Origin: Syntrophobacterales bacterium
GTDB taxonomy: Bacteria > Desulfobacterota > Desulfobaccia > Desulfobaccales > 0-14-0-80-60-11
DNA: 11,502 nucleotides
Assembly (NCBI GenBank): GCA_020052215.1
Contig: JAGVPN010000427.1
Location: 1-11,502 of the forward strand
Reading direction: 5' to 3'
Part shown: positions 1,029 to 11,502 of the stretch, one piece after another
How the letters are laid out: each line of letters opens with the position of its first letter
Numbering within the stretch: position 1 is the first letter of the stretch
Position numbers and translations under genes: made by a program
The notes under the pieces: model-generated
Database searches by the model: none
What the model was told of the DNA's origin: nothing
What the model saw: only the letters and a program-made list of their open reading frames with translations

Positions 1029-3329
1029 TTAGCGGCGCCAGGCCAGGTACCGGGTGAAAAGGCGCTTCAGCCCGGGCGTCAGCCTGGTGCGGTTGTACAG
1101 ATCGCCGGTCTGGCGGATGGCCTCCGCCTGGGTGGGATAGGGATGGATGACCGCGGCCAGGGCTCCCAGCCCGACCCGGCCCGCCATGGCCGTGGAGACC
1201 TCGCTGATCATCTCCCCGGCATGCCGGGCCACGATGGTGGCTCCCAGAATCTTGTCGGTCCCGGCCTTGACCAGAATTTTCACATACCCTTCTTCCTCCC
1301 CGTCCAGAATGGCTCTGTCCACTTCGCTCAAAGGCTTCACGAAGGTCTGGACGGCAATGCCTTTCTTCTGCGCCTCGGATTCAGACAGGCCCACGTGGGC
1401 TACTTCCGGGTCGGTATAGGTGCACCAGGGAATAGTCAGGGCGCTCAGCTTCTTGCGTCCGAAGAACAGGGCATTCTGAATGACGATGCGGGCGGCGGCG
1501 TCGGCCAGGTGGGTGAATTGGTAGGGCAGGCAGATGTCGCCGGCGGCGTAGATATGAGGATTGGTAGTCTGAAGCTTATCATTGACGATCACGCCCCGGC
1601 CTTTGCCTCCCTCGTATTTCACTCCCGCGGCTTCCAGATTGAGGCCCTCCACATTGGGAGCCCGGCCGGCGCCCACCAGGATATCGTCCACTTCGATTTC
1701 CGCCGCCTGGCCGTTGCTCTCGTAGTGCACCACCTTCCCGGTCGCAGTCTTGAGAACCCGCAGGGGCTTGGCGTTGAGGATGAGATGAATACCGTCCTTC
1801 AAGAAGGCTCTTTGGATCAGCTCAGCCGCCTCGGGATCTTCCTTGTTCATGATGCGGTCGTACTTGTGCAGGAGGGCCACCTGGCAACCCAGACGCTGCA
1901 TGGCCTGGGCAAACTCGCAGCCGATGGGCCCGCCGCCCATGACCAACAGCCGCTCCGGGCGCTGTGTAAGGGAAAAAACCGACTCATTGGTGAGAAAGCC
2001 GGCCTCGGCCAGACCTTCCATGTTGGGATGCACCGCGCGGCCACCCGTGGCAATAACCGCCTTCTTGAACCAGAGGGTTTTGCCGGCTACCTCCACGGTG
2101 TCAGGTCCGGAAAAGCGGGCCGCTCCCAGGAACACATCAATGCCCAATTCCTGAAAGCGCTTCACCGAATCATGATGGCTGATGCCGGCTCGCAGACGCC
2201 GCATGCGCTCCATGACCGCCGGGAAATCCACCTCAGCGCTTGCCGCGACTTTTAACCCGTACTGGCCGGCGTCCCGGAGGTCGGCATAAACTCGGGAGGA
2301 GCGAATGATGGCCTTGGAGGGGACGCAGCCGTAATTCAGGCAGTCTCCCCCTAAAAGATGCCGCTCCACCAGGGCAACTTTGGCTCCGAGACCCGCGGCC
2401 CCGGCCGCGGTCACCAATCCGGCGGTGCCCGCGCCGATGACCACCAGGTTGTAACGGGGGGCCGGTTCCGGGTTCTCCCAGGCAGGAGGATGGACATTGG
2501 CCAGCAAGGCTTCGTTATATTGATCCAGGGGGCTTACTGCCGGCTCCCGGTACGGTTCGGCTGTATCCGAGCTGCCGGGCTGGGTTTTTATCTCCTTGAG
2601 TTGCAGTTTTTTTCGAGCCGAACGCACCAGGAAGGTGAGGATCACCACCACCCCCGCCAAGGCGCCGATTAAGCCCCAAGGGACTTTACCCTGAGCCAGG
2701 CCTTTGGTGAAGGCGTCGGCTCCCACCACGTAAAGGGCGGTGCCCGGCAGCATGCAGAGCCAGGACCAGAGGACGTAGGTCCAGAAAGGCACTCGGGTCA
2801 GCCCAAACCCGTAATTGAGCAGGTTGAACGGAAAAATCGGCACCAGGCGGGTCAATGCCACGATGATGGCGCCATGCTCTTCCGTCAGTTGGTCCAGGCG
2901 TTGAAATTTCTCGCTTTTGGAGAGCCAGCGGACCACCGCTTCCCGGGCGAAATAACGGCCGACCAGGAAGGCCAGACCGGCGCCGATGGTGGCGCTAATG
3001 CTTACCAGGATGATCCCCAGGACTGAGCCGAACAGGGCCCCCGCGGCGATGGTGAGGGCGGAACCGGGCAGGGCCGCAACTACGGCCACTATATAAATCA
3101 GGACAAAGACTATCGGTCCCAGGGGTCCTAGGGTGCGGATCCAGTCCCGCAAGGCCTCTAGGCGCTCACCGACACCGAATACCTTGGCCAGTACCAGGAT
3201 GGCGACGACGAAGGCGAGGAGTACCACCGGGCGCCACCAGCCGCCCCCTTTTTTTCGGGCAGCAGGTTCAGGCTGACCGGGAGGGTCCTGGCTCCGGATA
3301 GAGTCGTCTTTACTCCTTGAGTGGTCCAC
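1029..3329 (-). CDS. Fusion of VTT/TVP38 membrane domain and mercuric-reductase-like flavoprotein
   Basis: This is a 766-residue two-part protein. The N-terminal part (about 30-240) has several hydrophobic segments and the VTT (SNARE-associated, DedA/TVP38) pattern LTIAAGALFGSVLG near 92-105, RYFARE at 125-130 and RLVPIFPFNLLNYG at 161-174. The C-terminal part (about 293-766) is a class I pyridine nucleotide-disulfide oxidoreductase. It has FAD motif GAGTAG (299-304), redox-active pair CLNYGC (330-335), NAD(P) motif GGGPIG (465-470) and second FAD motif AAGDIC (595-600), plus a dimerisation domain. The catalytic His-Pro of lipoamide dehydrogenase is replaced by Tyr731 in HPYPTQAE, as in mercuric reductases. 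However, the C-terminal Cys-Cys pair and N-terminal metal-binding domain of MerA are absent, so Hg(II) reduction is unlikely. The protein is probably an inner-membrane-bound dithiol or disulfide reductase of unknown substrate. It starts with GTG, preceded by TAAGGAG at 9 bases. Confidence 0.88.
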   Translation of the reverse strand: MDHSRSKDDSIRSQDPPGQPEPAARKKGGGWWRPVVLLAFVVAILVLAKVFGVGERLEALRDWIRTLGPLGPIVFVLIYIVAVVAALPGSALTIAAGALFGSVLGIILVSISATIGAGLAFLVGRYFAREAVVRWLSKSEKFQRLDQLTEEHGAIIVALTRLVPIFPFNLLNYGFGLTRVPFWTYVLWSWLCMLPGTALYVVGADAFTKGLAQGKVPWGLIGALAGVVVILTFLVRSARKKLQLKEIKTQPGSSDTAEPYREPAVSPLDQYNEALLANVHPPAWENPEPAPRYNLVVIGAGTAGLVTAAGAAGLGAKVALVERHLLGGDCLNYGCVPSKAIIRSSRVYADLRDAGQYGLKVAASAEVDFPAVMERMRRLRAGISHHDSVKRFQELGIDVFLGAARFSGPDTVEVAGKTLWFKKAVIATGGRAVHPNMEGLAEAGFLTNESVFSLTQRPERLLVMGGGPIGCEFAQAMQRLGCQVALLHKYDRIMNKEDPEAAELIQRAFLKDGIHLILNAKPLRVLKTATGKVVHYESNGQAAEIEVDDILVGAGRAPNVEGLNLEAAGVKYEGGKGRGVIVNDKLQTTNPHIYAAGDICLPYQFTHLADAAARIVIQNALFFGRKKLSALTIPWCTYTDPEVAHVGLSESEAQKKGIAVQTFVKPLSEVDRAILDGEEEGYVKILVKAGTDKILGATIVARHAGEMISEVSTAMAGRVGLGALAAVIHPYPTQAEAIRQTGDLYNRTRLTPGLKRLFTRYLAWRR

Positions 3330-3388
3330 AGTGGTTCTCCTTATGCGTGCAAGGTGACGATAGGTTGCAAAAGCAGGTTACGGCGCGG

Positions 3389-4906
3389 TTATCCTCCGGG
3401 TGGAGCCGTTAGTAAATGATATCCATAGGGCTTAAGAAGTACATAGAGACCCTTTGTTTCCAGTTGGCCCCGGTTCCGGGGGTAAATGGTCTGCGGCGCG
3501 CTCAAATCGTCTTTCAAGGGCACCTGCTCCCAGCCCTGCCAGAAGCCGTCGGGGAACTGGAGGAAGCCGGAGGCTACCTGGCCGCCCAGGTTCACCGCCA
3601 CCACGCCTCTCTGGTCACCAAGGGCATAGGCAAAAGCCACCAGGGGGCGGTGCGCCTCATCTCCCGTCACCGGAGGCTGTACTGGTAATACCTGGCACAC
3701 GCCTTCCTTGAACAACGGCTGCCGGGTCAGATTGAGAAGTTTCAAGTAAAAGGCGGCAAAGTCAGGATCGCTTGGTTCTTCAGGCCCTCGCCCCAACTGC
3801 ACCGGCAGCTTGATTCGGCTGCCCTCCAATTGACCATGGTGGAAGAGCCTGAGCCCCGGGGCCGTGGCGTGAATCACAGCCGCGGCGCGCCTCGCCTCGT
3901 CGGAAAAAGTGGCAGCGGCCCGGTCCTCATCGTGGTTCTCCAGGAACCGTACCATCCGGGGGCGCCGCAGACCCTCGTCCCTCAGACCCTGGGTAAAAGC
4001 CAGCGCATCCAAGGCTCGGAGACGGTCATAGCCGACTTTGTCATAAACGTAGTCAAAGCCCATTTGCAGCAGTTCGGTTTCCAAACCCCAGTAAACTTCG
4101 GCCATCAGGATAGAATCAGGGGACGTAGCCTTGAGGGGCTCCAGAACCTCGCTCCAGTATTCTTTTGGGGGGATAGTCCGGGCCGTCTCTGTCATCCAAG
4201 CCGCCCAGGTTGGGGCGAAAACCCGGTTGAGGGGCAGCATGGCCATGTCAACGCGTACACCATCGCAAAACCTGGCGATATTGAGCAGTTCGGCGGCCAG
4301 GGCGCCTCGCGTCTCCCGGCACCCGGAACATAACTGGGCCGTATCCGGCCAGGGGGCAAAATAAGGGTCGCGGCCGTGCGCCACCCAATAGGTGTTGCCG
4401 TCAGCAGCCAGGACGCTGAATGCCTCTCCCGGGCCGAATACTGAGGAAGAAGGGGAAGAAACGTACCGACTGGGGTGGGCCGATACCCAGGGATGGTCCA
4501 TAGCCGTATGATTGGGCACAAAATCCAGGATAAGGCCCAGACCGGCGCGACGGAGATTATTCCGGACTTTTATCAAGTCGGATTCGGCACCCAGGGCAGG
4601 GTTTAGCGTGTACCCGGCCACGGCATAGGGCGAGCCCACCAGGTCCGCCGGGGTGAAGTCGGGCAAGATTTCCCGGCAGACCTTCAGGAGACTTGGATTA
4701 CCGCGGTCAATGGCAATCCCCGCCGGGCTGGGGCGCCAGACCCCCATGAGCCAGACCAGGTCCATTCCCAGGTCTTTCAGGCGGTCCCAGTTTTCCTGGG
4801 GGATACTCCCCAGCGTGAGTTTCCGGCCAGATCGACCTGACAGGGAGTTGAGCCAGACCCTGGTATTGATTTCATAGAGTTGGGGATGTCGCGGTAACTG
4901 ATCCAT
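3389..4906 (-). CDS. GH13 alpha-amylase-family glycosidase
   Basis: This enzyme of 505 residues (from the ATG at 4906) shows all four GH13 regions: DFVPNH (128-133), GVRVD with the nucleophile Asp220, LMAEVYW with the acid/base Glu270, and ENHDED with the transition-state His325-Asp326. It is therefore very likely an active alpha-glucan or alpha-glucoside acting enzyme. Hydrolysis versus transglycosylation, and the substrate, cannot be told. There is no signal peptide, so it is probably cytoplasmic. The open frame extends to a TTG at 5017, but that would overlap the VTT gene by 86 bases. The chosen ATG lies 26 bases after the VTT stop and begins directly before HPQLYEINTRVWL, the usual start of the barrel. 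An ATG at 4975 is the main alternative. No start has a convincing ribosome binding site; coupling to the VTT gene is possible. The C-terminal part (about 400-505) looks like the GH13 beta-sandwich. Confidence 0.9.
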   Translation of the reverse strand: MDQLPRHPQLYEINTRVWLNSLSGRSGRKLTLGSIPQENWDRLKDLGMDLVWLMGVWRPSPAGIAIDRGNPSLLKVCREILPDFTPADLVGSPYAVAGYTLNPALGAESDLIKVRNNLRRAGLGLILDFVPNHTAMDHPWVSAHPSRYVSSPSSSVFGPGEAFSVLAADGNTYWVAHGRDPYFAPWPDTAQLCSGCRETRGALAAELLNIARFCDGVRVDMAMLPLNRVFAPTWAAWMTETARTIPPKEYWSEVLEPLKATSPDSILMAEVYWGLETELLQMGFDYVYDKVGYDRLRALDALAFTQGLRDEGLRRPRMVRFLENHDEDRAAATFSDEARRAAAVIHATAPGLRLFHHGQLEGSRIKLPVQLGRGPEEPSDPDFAAFYLKLLNLTRQPLFKEGVCQVLPVQPPVTGDEAHRPLVAFAYALGDQRGVVAVNLGGQVASGFLQFPDGFWQGWEQVPLKDDLSAPQTIYPRNRGQLETKGLYVLLKPYGYHLLTAPPGG

Positions 4907-4931
4907 ATCCGATACGATTAACTTTACGGGT

Positions 4932-5639
4932 CTAAGATGACCTTTGGTTTTGGGGTTCGGTCTCTTCTTTCCCATGTTGCAACAAAGTGCGCAGGGAAAA
5001 CAGATCATAGCGCTCAACCAGTCGGGGGAACCAAAAGAGGAAAAAGACCAATAATAACCCCAGGATTAAAACAGTCCCCCGACCTGATGCTAAAATAGCT
5101 GACCCGTAATAATTGTAGGCAAAAGTCATGGGCAGCATCCCCAGGAAGGTGGCCAGGCTGAAGGCTTTCAAGGAAATCATGGTAAGGCCGGCCCCATAGC
5201 TGACGACTTTGAATGAAACAAAGGGAAGTAATCGGGAGATGACGATCACCTTCGTCAGGAGGCGATCAGAACAGAGCGTGCAAAAATTGATATGTCCGGA
5301 AAGAAATCTCTCAATGAACTCTCGTCCGAGATAGCGAGCAATCAGGAAGGCGACAGCCGCCCCGGCTGTGGCGCCCACAGCCGAATAGATGGTACCCAGG
5401 AAGGGGCCGAAGAAGGCCCCGGCGGCAATATCCAGGGGCAGGGTGGGGATGAAGGGGATGACCACGGCCAGCGCCATGACAACCATATAGAGAAGTGGAG
5501 CCAGGCTGCCGGCTTTCCCGAGGATGCCTTGGATACGATCCGGGGGGAGATAGGATGTCAGGTCCCACAGGTAATTGGCGCCAAACAGAATCAGCACTAG
5601 AGCAATAAGTATTCGTTTGTCAATGGTTCCCAATTTCAT
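4932..5639 (-). CDS. TVP38/TMEM64-family (VTT domain) inner-membrane protein
   Basis: This 235-residue protein has hydrophobic stretches near residues 9-23, 45-65, 67-105, 150-180 and 188-205. It carries the VTT signature LDIAAGAFFGPFLG (68-82) followed by ARYLGREF (101-108) and SRLLPFVSFKVVSYGAG (135-151). This family (DedA/TVP38 superfamily) sits in the inner membrane; some members scramble or flip lipids, but the cargo of most bacterial ones is unknown. A CTLC pair (Cys120, Cys123) lies in the loop between the two signature parts. It might be a redox or metal site, which would fit the flavoprotein fused to a VTT domain two genes downstream; this is inference. AGGGAG about 11 bases before the ATG serves as ribosome binding site. 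The gene lies between the two glycosidase genes, 59 bases behind the large one and 26 bases ahead of the GH13 gene. Confidence 0.88.
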   Translation of the reverse strand: MKLGTIDKRILIALVLILFGANYLWDLTSYLPPDRIQGILGKAGSLAPLLYMVVMALAVVIPFIPTLPLDIAAGAFFGPFLGTIYSAVGATAGAAVAFLIARYLGREFIERFLSGHINFCTLCSDRLLTKVIVISRLLPFVSFKVVSYGAGLTMISLKAFSLATFLGMLPMTFAYNYYGSAILASGRGTVLILGLLLVFFLFWFPRLVERYDLFSLRTLLQHGKEETEPQNQRSS

Positions 5640-5664
5640 AAGTAATGCAACTCCCTCAGAAGAG

Positions 5665-5681
5665 CCTCAATGGCCATGAGG
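5665..5681 (-). other. Short intercistronic inverted repeat
   Basis: CCTCA and TGAGG (5665-5669 and 5677-5681) form a 5-bp stem with a 7-base loop in the gap between the large glucosidase stop and the VTT start. No T run follows on the transcript. It is weak and could be chance or an mRNA processing element. Confidence 0.25.
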
Positions 5682-5698
5682 TCGATCTGGCACGCGCC

Positions 5699-8356
5699 CT
5701 ACCTCCACCATTTAGCAGGTCGAGCCGGATATTTTCTTTTAATCAGGTTGGCCACCAGGCCGCTCCAACCGGTTTGATGCATCGCCCCCAGTCCCTGGCC
5801 GGTCTCGCCGTGATAATATTCGTAGAACAGGCAGAGATTCTGCCAGTGCGGGTCGTGTTGGAACGGGCTGTCCGGGGGATGAGCCGGAATTATTCCCTGG
5901 GCATTACGGCGGAAAAGGTTAATCAGGCGCTCGACCAGCAGGTCCACCACTTGCTCCAGATTCACCTCTCCGTCCTTCGCTCCCGGTAGCGGCACCTTGA
6001 AGTCAGGCCCCAAATACTCGTGGAATCTACTCAGGGCTCGCAAGAGGAAATAATTGATGGACAGCCACACCGGGCCCCGCCAATTGGAATTGCCGCCGAA
6101 TAGGTCGGATCTGGACTCGCCCGGGTCGTATTCGATGAGGGCCGTACCCAGGCCGGGAAGGGTTCCCAAGTCGCGTCTTTCGGCATGGAGGCGGCTCAGG
6201 CTGCGGACCCCATGGCCCGAGAGAAACTGGGCTTCATCCAGCAAACGCTGCAGAATGGGCGACACCATGCGATCGTCCGCGATGGAGAGCAAGTGGTCCC
6301 CGGTGGCATTAGTGGTAACCGGACAGGCGCAGACGATATGGGCATCGAAAGCTCCGCCCGCATGTTTCATCAGTTTGGCCATGAATTTAGGGAGCTTGGC
6401 CAGCACGGCTGGCCGCACGATTTCACTGGCGAACAGCGGGATAAGGCCCACGTAAGAATAAACGTCGATGCGACGGATAGCGCCGTCCGGGGTTATCAAG
6501 AGATCCTTGAAGAATTTATCTTCCGGGTCCCAGAGGGAAAGGTTCCGGGAGGTATGGCCGCCTATGGCGTTGGCGATGGAGAGAAATTGGTTGTAACACT
6601 GAATGGCGATATCCTCATAGGCAATGTCGTCCTGAGCCAGTTCCACCGCGATGGCCGTCATGTTGAGGGAAAACATGGCCATCCAGCCGGTGGCGTCGGC
6701 CTCTTTCAAACTGTACCCCGGTGGTAGCGGCATGGAACGGTCGTATACCGAGATATTATCCAGCCCCAGAAAACCGCCTTCGAACACATCCTGTCCTTCC
6801 CGGTCCTTACGATTCACCCACCAGGCAAAATTCATAATCAGCTTATTGAATACCCGCCGCAAAAAGTGCAGATCAGCCTGGCCTCGCTGCCGGCGTTCCC
6901 GGCGGAAAACTTCCAAGGCAGCCACCGCATGCACCGGCGGACTGGCATCGGCAAAGGACCACTCGTAGGCGGCTATCTGGCCGGTGGGATGCAGGTAGCG
7001 GGCATCCAACAACAATTCCAGTTGTTCCTTGGCGAAATCAATGTCCACCAGGGACAGGACCAGGGCGTGGAAGGCCAGGTCCCAGGCGGCGAACCAGGGG
7101 TATTCCCAGCTGTCCGGCATGGAAATCACATCGGCCGCGTCCAGGTGGCGCCAGTTGTGGTTCCGGCCGCGTTGGCGCTCCGCCGGCGGGGGGACCTGGT
7201 CACCGTCGAGCCAGCGGGCCACATTGAGATAGAAAAACTGCTTACACCAGATCATGCCGGCCAGAGCCTGACGGAAGATGCGGGCGTCTTCGGCGTTGGC
7301 CTCCGGCAAAATTTCTTCATAGAAGCCATCGGCTTCCGCCTGTCGCTGGGCTAAGACGGCGTCGATTTGCGCCAAGGGATTTTTCAAAGGACTGGAGCTG
7401 AGCACCAGTTCGATGGAGGCGAATTCGCCCGGCCCGCACTCCACCACCTGCCAGGCGGCAAACTTGGTGCCCACCTGGGCCGGATTGACGGCATCGATCT
7501 CTTCCTGGATGATCCGACGATGGAAGGCGTCTTTCACATAGGGAGAAGCATTGGGCCCGCCGAAGAGCCGCTGAAAATTCGTCTCGTTTTCCGTAAAGAG
7601 TCCCTGGGCGGGTTGCTTGCCGTAAAGGTAATAATTACCCAGAGTCGGGTGCGCAGCGGTCACCGCCCAGGCGGCCCTGCCCGGCTCGATGGCTCTTAGC
7701 TGCGGTTTGGCTTGCTCCGGGTCGCCCCAAGACCAGGTGTTGCGGAACCACAGGGTCGGCAAGAGATGCAGGGTGGCGTCTTCCGGGCCCCGGTTGGTAA
7801 CGGTGATGCGGGCATGAACGCTCTCGGGGCTCTCTTTGGCATAGACCACCTCCACGTCCCAATAGCGGCCCTCGGAAAAAACCCCGGTATCCAGCAGGTT
7901 AATCGATGGCTCCAATCGGGAGCGCCGCCGGCTCTCCGCCGCCAACAAAGCATAGGGAAATTCCGCCTGGGGATATTTATACAAATATTTCAAGTAACTG
8001 TGGCTGGGGCTGGCGTCCAGATAAAAAAAGTATTCTTTGACATCTTCGCCGTGGTTGCCCTCGCCGGGGGTCAGGCCAAAGGCCCGCTCTTTGAGGATGG
8101 GGTCGCGACCGTTCCATAGGGCCAGGGCCAGGCACAATCGCTGCTGCTCGTCGCAGATGCCCCCCATGCCGTCCTCCCCCCAGCGGTAGGCCCGGGAACG
8201 GGCGTGATCATGGGGAAAAAAGTTCCAGGCATCGCCGTTGGCGCTGTAATCCTCACGGACGGTGCCCCAGGCCCGTTCACCCAGGTAAGGCCCCCATAGC
8301 CGCCAGTTTTCCTCGCCGAGCCTCTGGGCCTCCAAACGCTGGTTCTCTGCATTCAT
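5699..8356 (-). CDS. MGH1-like (GH63-type) glucosidase
   Basis: This large enzyme of 885 residues belongs to the family annotated as MGH1-like glycoside hydrolase or 'glucosidase'. The N-terminal blocks [16 protein letters not shown] (about 30-45) and [19 protein letters not shown] (56-74) are characteristic. The second half is an (alpha/alpha)6 barrel: FAAWD with Asp426 is the likely general acid, NWRGPVW lies at 758-764, and [14 protein letters not shown] with Glu846 is the likely base near the C-terminus. Related enzymes act on alpha-linked glucosides, glucosylglycerate or mannosylglycerate; the true substrate here is not known. No signal peptide is seen. I chose the ATG at 8356, preceded by GGAAG at 5 bases, over an in-frame TTG at 8386. 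It is the first gene of the left operon and is expressed from the twin-palindrome promoter near 8600, behind a leader of about 230 bases. Confidence 0.88.
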
Positions 8357-8392
8357 GTCGTCTTCCCATAGTGACTTGTTCCTCAAGCCGAA

Positions 8393-8589: not shown

Positions 8590-8624
8590 ACTTTAAATTA
8601 TAAGGGAAAAGGTATAGATGAGCA
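8590..8624 (-). promoter_or_regulatory. Promoter of the glucosidase operon
   Basis: A perfect TATAAT box (minus strand, 8602-8597) lies downstream of the operator pair. The -35 position (about 8624-8619, TGCTCA) matches TTGACA poorly, as expected for a promoter that needs an activator. The start of transcription is expected near 8590. No experiment is implied; the call rests on the box and on the identical spacing at the hydrolase promoter. Confidence 0.65.
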
Positions 8625-8659
8625 GTGATTATGTCACCTTAAGATGGTGACTTTGTCAC
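8625..8659. promoter_or_regulatory. Twin 13-bp palindrome operator, predicted Crp/Fnr-family site pair
   Basis: Two palindromes, GTGATTATGTCAC (8625-8637) and GTGACTTTGTCAC (8647-8659), have centres 22 bp apart, about two helical turns. Their centres are 29 and 51 bp from the upstream edge of the TATAAT box, near -41 and -63. The half-site GTGA is the core read by CRP-type recognition helices with Arg-Glu, as in the regulator encoded just upstream. The gap between TGA and TCA is 5 bases instead of the usual 6. The same pair, with a degenerate promoter-proximal copy, occurs before the hydrolase gene. Confidence 0.7.
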
Positions 8660-8727
8660 TAAAAAAGGGAGGGTACTTTGAGAGGGTTCTCTTCGATGAC
8701 TTACGGAAAGGCCGTCTATTGGGGGGA

Positions 8728-9381
8728 TCAGGAGAGCTTAAGGTTGGTCAACTGAATGCAATTTCTTGACAGGATTATTAAACCCCTGCGCTCGAAATCC
8801 TTCAATAAACGGCTCACCACTTCCCTGGCCGTGCCCAATTCGTTGGCTATGACTTGATGGGTCGCAAATAATTTACCGTCTTCGCCCTTTTCTATGAGGT
8901 AATCGATCAGCCGCTCATCCATCCTTTTAAATGCAACTTCTGTGATTAGCTCCATAACCTCTACAAACATCTTACTTATATGAGCATGTATTAATTCTCT
9001 CATCTCTTTATATTTAGAGATGTACTCACGTAATTGATCTGGCGTAATAATAAGCATTTCAACATCTGTTATCGATATCGCGTTAGCCGGGTAAGGGATA
9101 TTTGACAAGGCGCACGACGCAGTCAACATACAAAACTCCCCTGAAACGATGTTGCCCAGGGTTATTTCCCTGCCCTCGCTTGCCTTAAAAATTCTCTTCT
9201 CCCCTGAAAGCATGAGGATTAAACCGGAACAACGGTGTCCATCCTTAAGAATCATAGTATTGGGGGGGGCGCTGACATATTCACCGTATGACAGGATATC
9301 ACTGACTAAAGCAGGTGGGGCTTTTTGAAATACAGGGAAAACACCAAGCAACCTGTCTTTTGATATTCTTTTCATTGGCAT
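8728..9381 (-). CDS. Crp/Fnr-family transcriptional regulator 1
   Basis: This 217-residue regulator has an N-terminal cyclic-nucleotide-binding-type beta-roll (about 12-120), a long dimer helix (about 122-160) and a C-terminal winged helix-turn-helix (about 172-212). The recognition helix is GTAREVVSRLL (183-193); Arg and Glu at 186-187 and Arg191 match the base-reading positions of CRP, which fits a GTGA half-site. The stretch GEFCMLTASCALSNIPYPA (81-99) replaces the cAMP-phosphate Arg-Ser pair of CRP with Tyr-Pro, so cAMP binding as in CRP is unlikely. The N-terminal iron-sulfur cysteines of FNR are absent. Cys84 and Cys90 in the roll could sense redox or a ligand; this is inference. It sits upstream of the twin-palindrome promoter of the glucosidase operon, its likely target. 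No clear ribosome binding site precedes the ATG at 9381 or the one at 9375. The gene looks more A+T-rich than the operon. Confidence 0.9.
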   Translation of the reverse strand: MPMKRISKDRLLGVFPVFQKAPPALVSDILSYGEYVSAPPNTMILKDGHRCSGLILMLSGEKRIFKASEGREITLGNIVSGEFCMLTASCALSNIPYPANAISITDVEMLIITPDQLREYISKYKEMRELIHAHISKMFVEVMELITEVAFKRMDERLIDYLIEKGEDGKLFATHQVIANELGTAREVVSRLLKDFERRGLIILSRNCIQLTNLKLS

Positions 9382-9448
9382 TCAGTGCTATGGCTTATAA
9401 CCTGAGACTTTCCCTGCGTCCCGGTGAATTTTGATGGTCGGTGATCAT

Positions 9449-9472
9449 GACGTTGCGCACGCGCATGACGTC
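9449..9472. other. Interrupted inverted repeat upstream of regulator 1
   Basis: GACGT-TGCGC pairs with GCGCA-TGACGTC across a very short centre, giving two 5-bp stems with a small bulge between them. The same stretch contains CATGACGT twice in direct orientation (9446-9453 and 9464-9471). It lies between the hydrolase stop and the regulator 1 start. No T run follows, so it may be an operator or a poor terminator of the hydrolase transcript. Confidence 0.35.
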
Positions 9473-9527
9473 TTCGGCAGCTTAGTGGCATCACCCCATC
9501 TGACACAATGCGCCATTGCCGGCAAGT

Positions 9528-10436
9528 CTACACTTTGACGTTCTTGCGGAGGAAGCTCCGTATCAGGTCGGCTATCTTGTCGCCGTCCTCCTCCAGCGCA
9601 AAGTGTCCGGTGTCGAGCAGGTGAAACTCCAGATTCTTCAAGTCTCTCCTATAGGGCTCAGCGCCGGCCGGGGGAAAGATCTCATCGTTCTTCCCCCAGA
9701 CGATGAGCATCGGCGGCTGGTGCTGGTGGAAGTAGGCCTGCCATTCCGGGTAATGCGGTGGATTGCTGCCGTAGCTATAGAAGAGAGCGAGTTGAATTCC
9801 AGAGTTCCCCGGCCGGTCGAGCAGCGGCTGGTCGACATTCCAGTTGTCGGGGCTGATCGTCTCTTTATTCCGGACACCATGGGTGTATTGCCAGATCGTG
9901 GCTTCCCGGGTGAAAAAGTCGCGCAGAGGCTTCTCGCGCTCTGCGGTCTTCTCTTGCCAGTAGGCCTTGAGTGGCTTCCAGAAATCATTGTCGATGCCCT
10001 CGTCATAAGCGTTGCCGTTCTGCACCACGAGCGCCTGCACGCGCTCCGGGTGCTTGCAAGCCAGGCGGTAGCCGACAGGCGCGCCGTAGTCCTGAACATA
10101 CAACGTATAATTCTTCAGCCCGACTTTCTCCGTGAACTTCTCGATCACCTCGGCCAGATGGTCGAATGTGTACTCGAACTGGTCCACGGTGGGCATCGAG
10201 CTGTTCCCGAAGCCGGGGTAGTCCGGCGCCACCAAATGAAATTCATTGGCCAGAGCCGGGATCAGGTTACGGAACATATGCGAACTGGTGGGGAAGCCAT
10301 GGAGCAAAAGCACAACGGCGGCGTCCTGCGGCCCCGCCTCCCGGTAGAAAATATCCAGGCCGTTGATCTTCACGATCCTGTAGGCCACCTTGGCTGCTGT
10401 TCCCGCCCCTGCAAGATGGCTACCCTGTGCTTTCAT
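9528..10436 (-). CDS. Alpha/beta hydrolase, haloalkane dehalogenase/epoxide hydrolase-like
   Basis: This enzyme of 302 residues has the alpha/beta hydrolase core. HGFPTS (46-51) is the oxyanion-hole loop, VQDYGAP places an Asp nucleophile (Asp116) at the elbow, WGKND gives Asp251 as a likely acid, and DTGHFALE holds the catalytic His278. A Trp/Tyr-rich cap lies between about 145 and 235. An Asp rather than Ser nucleophile points to epoxide hydrolases, haloalkane or fluoroacetate dehalogenases rather than esterases; the substrate is open. No signal peptide is seen. I placed the start at the ATG at 10436 because GGAGG (10443-10447) lies 6 bases before it. The longer frame from 10496 begins upstream of this site with a basic, unconserved-looking stretch. 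The gene is preceded by the second twin-palindrome promoter and regulator 2, its likely controller. Confidence 0.88.
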
Positions 10437-10564
10437 AATTGACCTCCGTTTCACATAATTTAATTGAGCAAGGCCATGCCGCCTTCTCAGTGCCATAATG
10501 TTCCGTGGAACCCCTTAAAATCATTTCAAGCTCCCGATATACCAGTACAACACACCTGGATAAT

Positions 10565-10599
10565 GGCTACGATTATAGCTACAAGGGAAGATTAATCAA
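10565..10599 (-). promoter_or_regulatory. Promoter of the hydrolase gene
   Basis: On the minus strand, TTGATT (10599-10594) and a perfect TATAAT (10577-10572) are 16 bases apart, a sigma-70-type promoter with a start expected near 10565. The promoter-proximal operator overlaps the -35 region edge, as in class II activation. Confidence 0.7.
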
Positions 10600-10634
10600 G
10601 GAAATGTGTCATTGGCAATCGGTGATTTTGTCAC
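10600..10634. promoter_or_regulatory. Second twin-palindrome operator, predicted Crp/Fnr-family site pair
   Basis: The distal copy GTGATTTTGTCAC (10622-10634) is a near-perfect palindrome. The proximal copy (10600-10612) keeps only one good half-site, TGTCA, and matches 8 of 13 bases of its counterpart at 8625. Centres are 22 bp apart and 29 and 51 bp from the edge of TATAAT, the same figures as in the glucosidase promoter. The better -35 box here goes with the weaker proximal site. Confidence 0.68.
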
Positions 10635-10720
10635 AAAGGATGAGGCCGCGCACGTAGAAAGGACTGCTTGGTTTAGGTGGGTTTAGGGGATGCCCGGGAG
10701 GTTTGAGAAAATCAGGAGGA

Positions 10721-11368
10721 TTAAATATTGGTGAGTTGGATGCAGTTTCTTGAGAGAATGACCAAGCCTCTCCTTTCAAAATCTTTTAATAAACGGCTTA
10801 CCACTTCCCTGGCCGTGCCCAATTCGTTGGCTATGGTTTGATGGGTCGCAGATAATCTGCCGTCTTCCGACTTTTCAATAATATAATCCATCAATCTATC
10901 ATCCATTCTCTTGAAGACGACTTCAGCGATTAATTCCATGACATCCGCCAGGTTCTGACTAATGAAGGAAAACATTAAGCTCTGCATCTCTTCAAATTTA
11001 AAAATGTACTCCCGGAATTTATCGGGTGGGATGATCAGCAACTCAACATTGGTGATGGATATCGCATTAGCCGGATAGGGAGTATTTGATAGAAGGGACA
11101 TTGCATTTATTATACAAAACTCTCCGGCGACAACGTTATAAAGAGTTATTTCTTTGCCAGTACCGCTTTGCTTAAAGATTCTTTTCTCCCCGGAAAGGAC
11201 GAGGACTAAACCGGGAGAATATTCCCCTTCCCGCTGTAATATGGTGTTTGGCGGTGCGGACATATATTGGCTGAATGACAAAATATCATTGACTAAGGCT
11301 TGGGGGCCTCTTTGGAAAACCGGAAAAATATCGAGGAATCTATCTCTGGTTATTGCACTCATTGGCAT
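10721..11368 (-). CDS. Crp/Fnr-family transcriptional regulator 2
   Basis: This 215-residue paralogue of regulator 1 has the same layout: a beta-roll sensor domain (about 10-117), a dimer helix and a winged helix-turn-helix. From ATHQ to the LTN near the end (about 40 residues) it differs from regulator 1 at only two positions, and the recognition helix GTAREVVSRLL (184-194) is identical. The sensor half differs much more: Cys85 (GEFC) is kept, but the second Cys of regulator 1 is Ser here (MSLLS). As in regulator 1, YPA replaces the Arg-Ser of the cAMP pocket. I chose the ATG at 11368, which gives an N-terminus (MPMSAITRDR) that lines up with regulator 1 and has AGGA at 8 bases; the frame also opens at a TTG at 11389. 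It precedes the hydrolase promoter, its likely target. Confidence 0.9.
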   Translation of the reverse strand: MPMSAITRDRFLDIFPVFQRGPQALVNDILSFSQYMSAPPNTILQREGEYSPGLVLVLSGEKRIFKQSGTGKEITLYNVVAGEFCIINAMSLLSNTPYPANAISITNVELLIIPPDKFREYIFKFEEMQSLMFSFISQNLADVMELIAEVVFKRMDDRLMDYIIEKSEDGRLSATHQTIANELGTAREVVSRLLKDFERRGLVILSRNCIQLTNI

Positions 11369-11383
11369 CGAAGAAGTCCTACG

Positions 11384-11410
11384 CGGCAACGGTCTTATAC
11401 CAGGTTGCCG
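11384..11410. promoter_or_regulatory. Inverted repeat over a putative -10 box of regulator 2
   Basis: CGGCAAC (11384-11390) and GTTGCCG (11404-11410) are perfect 7-bp arms with inner arms GGT and ACC. The centre contains TATAAG on the minus strand (11399-11394), which could be the -10 box of regulator 2. The matching -35 is weak. It may be an operator for control of regulator 2 or a leader hairpin just before its ribosome binding site. Confidence 0.4.
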
Positions 11411-11433
11411 TCAAACAAGTAATAATCCGAATT

Positions 11434-11461
11434 GTAGGGGCGGTTCGCGAACCGCCCCTAC
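11434..11461. repeat. Perfect 28-bp palindrome, REP/MITE-like
   Basis: GTAGGGGCGGTTCG (11434-11447) is followed directly by its exact reverse complement (to 11461). Palindromes starting GTAGGGGCG are common dispersed intergenic repeats in many bacteria, so this is probably one copy of such a family rather than a gene-specific site. It could also act as a terminator hairpin for a gene beyond the window edge, but no T run follows on either side. A second small palindrome, TGGTTGCAACCA, lies at 11464-11475. Confidence 0.65.
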
Positions 11462-11502
11462 GGTGGTTGCAACCATAAAGCCAGAGTTACCTCTATGACG
11501 GC

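Follow-up and report, generated by a model that had tools for sequence, protein, structure and literature searches.

A predicted 13-bp operator shared by two Crp/Fnr regulators of a Syntrophobacterales bacterium, with a possible link to persulfide sensing

Contig JAGVPN010000427.1 of a Syntrophobacterales bacterium (GenBank assembly GCA_020052215.1) holds, in the 11,502 nucleotides analysed here (the window), the genes of two Crp/Fnr regulators, RegA and RegB, and three perfect 13-bp palindromes of the form GTGA-N5-TCAC (8625-8637, 8647-8659 and 10622-10634). On the minus strand the order is RegB (11368-10721), a hydrolase gene (10496-9528), RegA (9381-8728), a glycoside-hydrolase gene (8386-5699) and the rest of a presumed operon, and each regulator gene is followed downstream by an intergenic region with the predicted operator of the next gene. 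We propose that the palindromes are the operator GTGAC-N3-GTCAC shared by RegA and RegB and, from sequence comparison, that both proteins very likely bind the 13-bp site and activate transcription. The wider picture, tentative and judged somewhat short of an even bet, is a little-characterised but widespread Crp/Fnr subfamily that would sense persulfide via a Cys in what was once the cyclic-nucleotide pocket and use a one-base-shortened 13-bp operator at -41; here a duplicated sensor pair would have been transferred to the control of carbohydrate and hydrolase genes, so that one operator is read by two sensors with unequal Cys content.

The looser pattern GTGAYNNNRTCAC is found three times in the window against a shuffle mean of 0.04, and none of 200 window shuffles reaches three. 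Two of the palindromes stand in the promoter of the glycoside-hydrolase gene (the glucosidase promoter, minus strand): a near predicted operator at about -41 (GTGACATAATCAC, 8625-8637), 22 bp before the -10 element TATAAT (8597-8602, read 8602-8597), and a far one at about -63 (8647-8659, an exact match, GTGACAAAGTCAC on the gene strand). No -35 element above 3 of 6 matches was found here at spacers of 15-19, and this is the only window promoter predicted from its sequence to be of the class II Crp type, with a site near -41.5 and no good -35. The hydrolase promoter, on the same strand, carries an exact far site at about -63 (GTGACAAAATCAC, 10622-10634) and a -35-like TTGATT separated by 16 bp from TATAAT (10572-10599, 10 of 12 matches; TATAAT at 10577-10572). 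Its near position (10600-10612, ATGACACATTTCC on the gene strand) matches GTGACAWARTCAC at only 8 of 13 bases, with one recognisable half-site; at a fixed position and with intergenic composition, P is 0.014 for at least 8 of 13 and 0.052 for at least 7 of 13. Hence, the half-site may be real, the full palindrome is absent, and the full twin operator is limited to the glucosidase promoter. An earlier sequence-only reading had placed pairs of 13-bp GTGA-type palindromes, as one twin operator, in both promoters. Three of the four are indeed perfect and the twin stands at the glucosidase promoter, whereas the fourth is not such a palindrome and the hydrolase promoter combines a good site at about -63 with a half-site at -41 and TTGATT. 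The spacing given there is correct, in that the upstream edge of TATAAT is 29 and 51 bp away from the two site centres in both promoters, and so is the low conservation of the remaining intergenic DNA, for which a blastn comparison of the two regions gives at best 17 bp, spanning the far site (E = 0.009).

The site is rare in the genome (2,827,007 bases or 2.83 Mb scanned; 73% complete). GTGACAWARTCAC occurs without mismatch at four places in three promoters, namely the three window sites and positions 1105-1117 of contig C163. Seven genome places match GTGAYNNNRTCAC, compared with two for the reversed control, and the three beyond the GTGACAWARTCAC places lie inside open reading frames (ORFs); with up to two mismatches, GTGACAWARTCAC gives 103 strand-hits against 49 for the reversed control, palindromic sites counting on both strands. 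The gene behind the C163 site, whose ATG is 181 bp away, encodes a peroxidase-related enzyme (TIGR01926, 101.1 bits against a cut-off of 81.8; CMD by Pfam). The near position on C163 has only 6 of 13 matches, and TATATA starts 51 bp from the site centre, so that a -10-like hexamer stands at this distance from the far-site centre in all three promoters (TATAAT in both window promoters). The regulon had been thought to comprise two promoters; at least three carry the site, the one on C163 having been missed. As further members we considered the one-mismatch sites (L013-L015), all three of which are inside ORFs, and a genome search for a near site followed by TANNNT, which returned, apart from the glucosidase promoter, two sites within ORFs. 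Two-mismatch places were examined in the fetched loci, and weaker members of the regulon may therefore be missed. Autoregulation through the operator was rejected, as the stretches upstream of RegA and RegB that match best have 2 and 4 mismatches of 8. None of 14 glucosidase loci of relatives (L039-L052) contains GTGAYNNNRTCAC, although some of these are gene fragments in which the upstream region is possibly missing.

RegA and RegB belong to the Crp/Fnr superfamily, both scoring above the cut-offs of PF00027, PF13545 and PF00325. They are 67% identical, and the stretch from ELGTAREVVSR to LSRNCIQLTN differs by one Ile/Val; because the DNA-binding helices are nearly identical, the two proteins should bind the same operator. 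The CRP specificity positions Arg, Glu and Arg (R186, E187 and R191 in RegA, equivalent to R180, E181 and R185) recur in 26, 27 and 27 of the 27 sequences aligned and go together with GTGA half-sites, a CRP-type mode of recognition. With the CRP equivalog model the two proteins score far under the cut-off (36 and 40 bits against 266). The FNR oxygen sensor carries an N-terminal Cys cluster for its 4Fe-4S centre; no cluster of this type is seen by eye in the RegA and RegB sequences. Cys84 of RegA is kept in 26 of the 27 sequences and Cys90 in 20. In an AlphaFold model (5 sequences; pLDDT 85.8, pTM 0.62), RegA resembles Crp-type structures, with 4ev0 and 3dv8 at the top. Over its whole length the model superposes badly on 3dv8 (rmsd 13.9), in the way expected when domains are oriented differently; among sequence matches to RegA 3dv8 ranks first (profile E 2.5e-44), by fold second, and it has a C-x5-C stretch. 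In the model, residue 84 comes directly before a short helix (85-93), which we take to be the phosphate cassette of CRP, with Cys84 placed in the cassette region by eye. CRP itself, in contrast, is not known to have such a Cys. A first look at the source genome gave six to seven Crp/Fnr candidates, of which only RegA and RegB pass E 1e-20.

The regulator was found at E 1e-20 in 1 of 59 related genomes (the source genome only, the three same-genus genomes lacking it) and at E 1e-22 in 5 of 395 genomes of the phylum, source genome included. For the footprint of the operator we used 30 loci of relatives (L005-L007, L057-L064, L065-L068 and L070-L084), among them many Rhodobacterales. A plasmid search with RegA at E 1e-10 gave 31 records, 22 of which were fetched, the omitted ones being mostly close repeats of the same genera; L084 was added from the RegB search (36 records). 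The exact site with a spacer of five bases (N5) adjoins the regulator in 18 of the 30 loci: in 16 within 350 bp downstream (27 loci scanned in this way; single-locus shuffle P 0-0.013), in L065, which has the gene in divergent orientation, and in L070 further downstream. L057 and L072 have one mismatch. L057 (shuffle P 0.143) is weak by itself, given that L078, counted as site-less, scores no worse with its one-mismatch stretch (P 0.117), and was kept in the count because a YgaP-like gene follows. These footprints beside related regulators, other phyla included, strongly support the proposal that the site is a Crp/Fnr operator which serves the adjacent regulators and is positioned as for an activator. 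Besides its N5 site, L071 has an exact stretch with a six-base spacer (N6) 208 bp behind it, and L083 (Tritonibacter) has a further exact GTGACAAGGTCAC 173 bp before the approximate regulator start, possibly for autoregulation or as the site of another gene.

The promoter geometry is kept as well. For the 20 sites counted (the 18 exact ones, L057 and L072), a TA follows at 22 or 23 bp in 18, that is, at every exact site; against a background of 0.025 per position the binomial tail is 4e-22, with the positions picked post hoc and relatedness ignored. With a simple -10 score over 17 loci, a spacer of 22 ranks best of 52 tested. As predicted from sequence, this spacing is that of a class II (-41) activator, as at the near site of the glucosidase promoter. 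It is the -41 position that relatives keep: a second copy 22 bp upstream is found at none of the 20 sites, the fewest mismatches there being 5 of 8.

In 17 of the 18 loci with an exact site, the neighbours include a YgaP-like/DUF2892 gene or another sulfide/persulfide-detoxification gene; the remaining locus, L083, is unannotated. YeeE/YedE, DUF6691, MBL hydrolase, rhodanese-type or sulfur-transferase genes are present in 11 (L059, L060, L061, L062, L064, L071, L073, L076, L077, L080 and L081), and SulP is also among the neighbour genes of relatives. Pfam assigns PF11127 in L005, L006, L065 and L066, and we assume that PF11127 and the annotated DUF2892 are one family. In L059 the MBL protein can be aligned with the second half of the sulfur transferase/dioxygenase Blh, scoring 367 bits, below the cut-off of 625 for the two-domain protein. 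L075, L078, L079 and L084, all counted as site-less, have other neighbours. In L066 (5905-6880), from a genome of the same phylum, the site is followed by an ORF that by eye resembles a truncated haemoglobin lipoprotein, and then by the YgaP-like gene.

We suggest that a regulator dimer at about -41 would touch RNA polymerase as a class II activator at the glucosidase promoter, where a second dimer two helical turns upstream, at about -63, would help; at the hydrolase and C163 promoters the dimer at about -63 would work in class I fashion. The signal may be sensed via a Cys near the usual effector pocket. By analogy with the neighbour genes of relatives, it is probably thiol-reactive, with sulfane sulfur or persulfide the likeliest, and we put persulfide sensing by the family at about an even chance. 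Targets here would be the glycoside-hydrolase/FAD-oxidoreductase operon, the alpha/beta hydrolase gene and the peroxidase-related gene. The start of RegA lies 146 bp beyond the hydrolase gene and no terminator-like site was found on the gene strand in the scanned region; hence, RegA is perhaps co-transcribed with that gene and might itself be raised through the operator.

Several observations weigh against this reading. The case for a persulfide signal is one of guilt by association, and 6 of the 18 loci with an exact site (L005, L006, L058, L065, L066 and L070) have a YgaP-like/DUF2892 gene as the sole sulfur gene identified. A site before detoxification genes is seen in relatives and not in the source genome. 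The window sites precede other genes, and a search of the 73%-complete genome for PF11127 found none, although the family is present in 10 of 14 control genomes. A sulfur function hence cannot be read from the bacterium's own targets, and the operator appears to have been redeployed there. RegB keeps the first conserved Cys and has Ser in place of the second, as in six others of the 27 sequences. On C163 the better -10 match is TATAAG, at 53 bp. No convincing site was found in 8 of the 30 loci (L007, L067, L068, L074, L075, L078, L079 and L084; L067 and L068 scanned for exact sites only). Finally, N6 spacing is found in L063 (4730-4743, exact, Pontibacter) and L082 (3600-3613, one mismatch, Spirosoma), where sulfur-type genes are present too; these two Bacteroidota loci hint that operator spacing may differ by lineage.

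The main rival to a persulfide signal is heme or another redox signal: the same operator and regulators would then serve a general redox response to heme, oxygen, peroxide or nitric oxide. An excerpt of PMC6955866 describes PgRsp of P. gingivalis, for which 3dv8 likewise served as the modelling template, as a heme-binding protein whose loss alters oxidative-stress genes, a further point against persulfide; the peroxidase-related C163 target and the haemoglobin-like ORF behind the L066 site also fit. However, YeeE/YedE, MBL, rhodanese-type or similar sulfur genes lie near the regulator in 14 of 23 plasmid loci, Cys84 is almost invariant, and in PgRsp replacement of Cys76 left the heme spectra unchanged (PMC6955866, same excerpt). 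We regard a heme or redox signal as unlikely, though the strongest of the competing explanations.

The sites could also be repressor operators, with protein at -41 and -63 blocking polymerase until the signal releases it, and known sulfane-sulfur sensors do include repressors, the ArsR-type sHdrR and SoxR (PMC12423496, in part). A -10 that stands a constant 22-23 bp from the site in 18 of 20 cases, and a glucosidase promoter lacking a -35, are more in line with activation, and we consider repression improbable. That another Crp/Fnr protein of the genome binds the palindromes, RegA and RegB being adjacent by chance, is more improbable still: the six to seven candidates mean that other Crp/Fnr-like proteins may exist, but it is the RegA/RegB family that the site adjoins in 18 of 30 loci, and no other protein of the genome passes the E 1e-20 threshold. 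Least of all do we credit chance palindromes with a coincidental geometry. The marginal fourth site (10600-10612) would suit this view, but against it, for the three perfect sites, stand the shuffles, which never gave three, and the footprint in relatives; we regard it as close to negligible.

CRP-type promoters fall into classes with the activator at -41 or about -62. The operators described here share this placement, the GTGA/TCAC half-sites and the R-E-x-x-x-R recognition helix with CRP-type operators, and differ in the spacer: the canonical even palindrome GTGA-N6-TCAC is replaced by N5 at the 4 genome sites and the 18 exact sites of relatives, an odd 13-bp palindrome one bp shorter. For comparison, an excerpt of PMC1274295 gives wTGTGA-N6-TCACAw both for CRP of E. 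coli and for HcpR of Desulfovibrio, relates R180 and E181 to bases in the half-site, and describes the CRP-like and FNR-like HcpR sites as even palindromes alike. The FNR-like HcpR operator in it, TTGAC-N4-GTCAA, has the same inner GAC/GTC bases, but is one bp longer and has T rather than G at the outer position. RegA differs from CRP by the Cys in the phosphate-cassette region. Its best sequence match, the Crp/Fnr protein 3dv8 of Eubacterium rectale, shares the C-x5-C stretch, while PgRsp differs in binding heme; the available part of PMC6955866 gives no operator for either.

BigR, FisR, SqrR and the CsoR-type sulfane-sulfur regulators have folds other than Crp/Fnr. Like the scheme proposed here, BigR and FisR (parts of PMC7315123 and PMC9774590), SqrR and the CsoR-type regulators control sulfide/persulfide genes by Cys chemistry. 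An excerpt of PMC7315123 reports strong persulfidation of a Crp-like protein in A. baumannii, the effect of which is said there to be unknown. That protein is a Crp-type regulator with a persulfide-modified Cys, but is close to E. coli Crp (50% identical) and has no tie to the 13-bp operator in that excerpt; it indicates that a Crp-type protein can carry persulfidation and does not thereby give the role of the modification. The RedB motif is non-palindromic (PMC9603854, in part), and the parts seen of PMC12170894 and PMC13047784 hold nothing bearing on the question. Among the literature matches listed, none deals with a Crp/Fnr regulator that senses persulfide and serves such operons, or with a Crp/Fnr protein that has a GTGAC-N3-GTCAC site. 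A Crp/Fnr regulator adjoining its target operator is ordinary; new, as far as those matches show, are the one-base-shorter operator kept across phyla, the sulfur-gene link and the use here before other genes.

All window genes considered are on the minus strand. The alpha/beta hydrolase (9528-10496, PF00561) matches haloalkane-dehalogenase models with scores under their cut-offs. The first gene of the presumed operon encodes an MGH1/GH63-like glycoside hydrolase (5699-8386; PF22422, PF03200), and the remainder (1029-5639, from ORFs and Pfam) a VTT protein (4932-5639), an alpha-amylase-like protein (3389-5017) and, last, a fusion protein of a VTT membrane domain and a mercuric-reductase-like FAD oxidoreductase (1029-3329). 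Co-transcription of 1029-8386 is suggested by gaps of about 60 bp or overlaps. A misbinned contig is spoken against by tetranucleotide correlations of 0.95 (window) and 0.88 (C163) with 21 pooled loci of the genome. The stretch 8600-11502 has a GC content of 0.487, compared with 0.58-0.59 elsewhere in the window, and a correlation of 0.63. It was possibly acquired later, although the evidence is weak, given that single loci of the genome reach similar values (GC 0.477-0.613, correlation 0.468-0.897).

With these results, an operator and a promoter geometry can be predicted for a Crp/Fnr subfamily, which in Pseudomonadota, Chloroflexota and the phylum of the source genome is linked to YgaP-like and sulfide/persulfide-detoxification genes. 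The odd 13-bp palindrome would imply an altered dimer geometry on DNA, and the window looks like a case of one operator serving quite different genes than in relatives.

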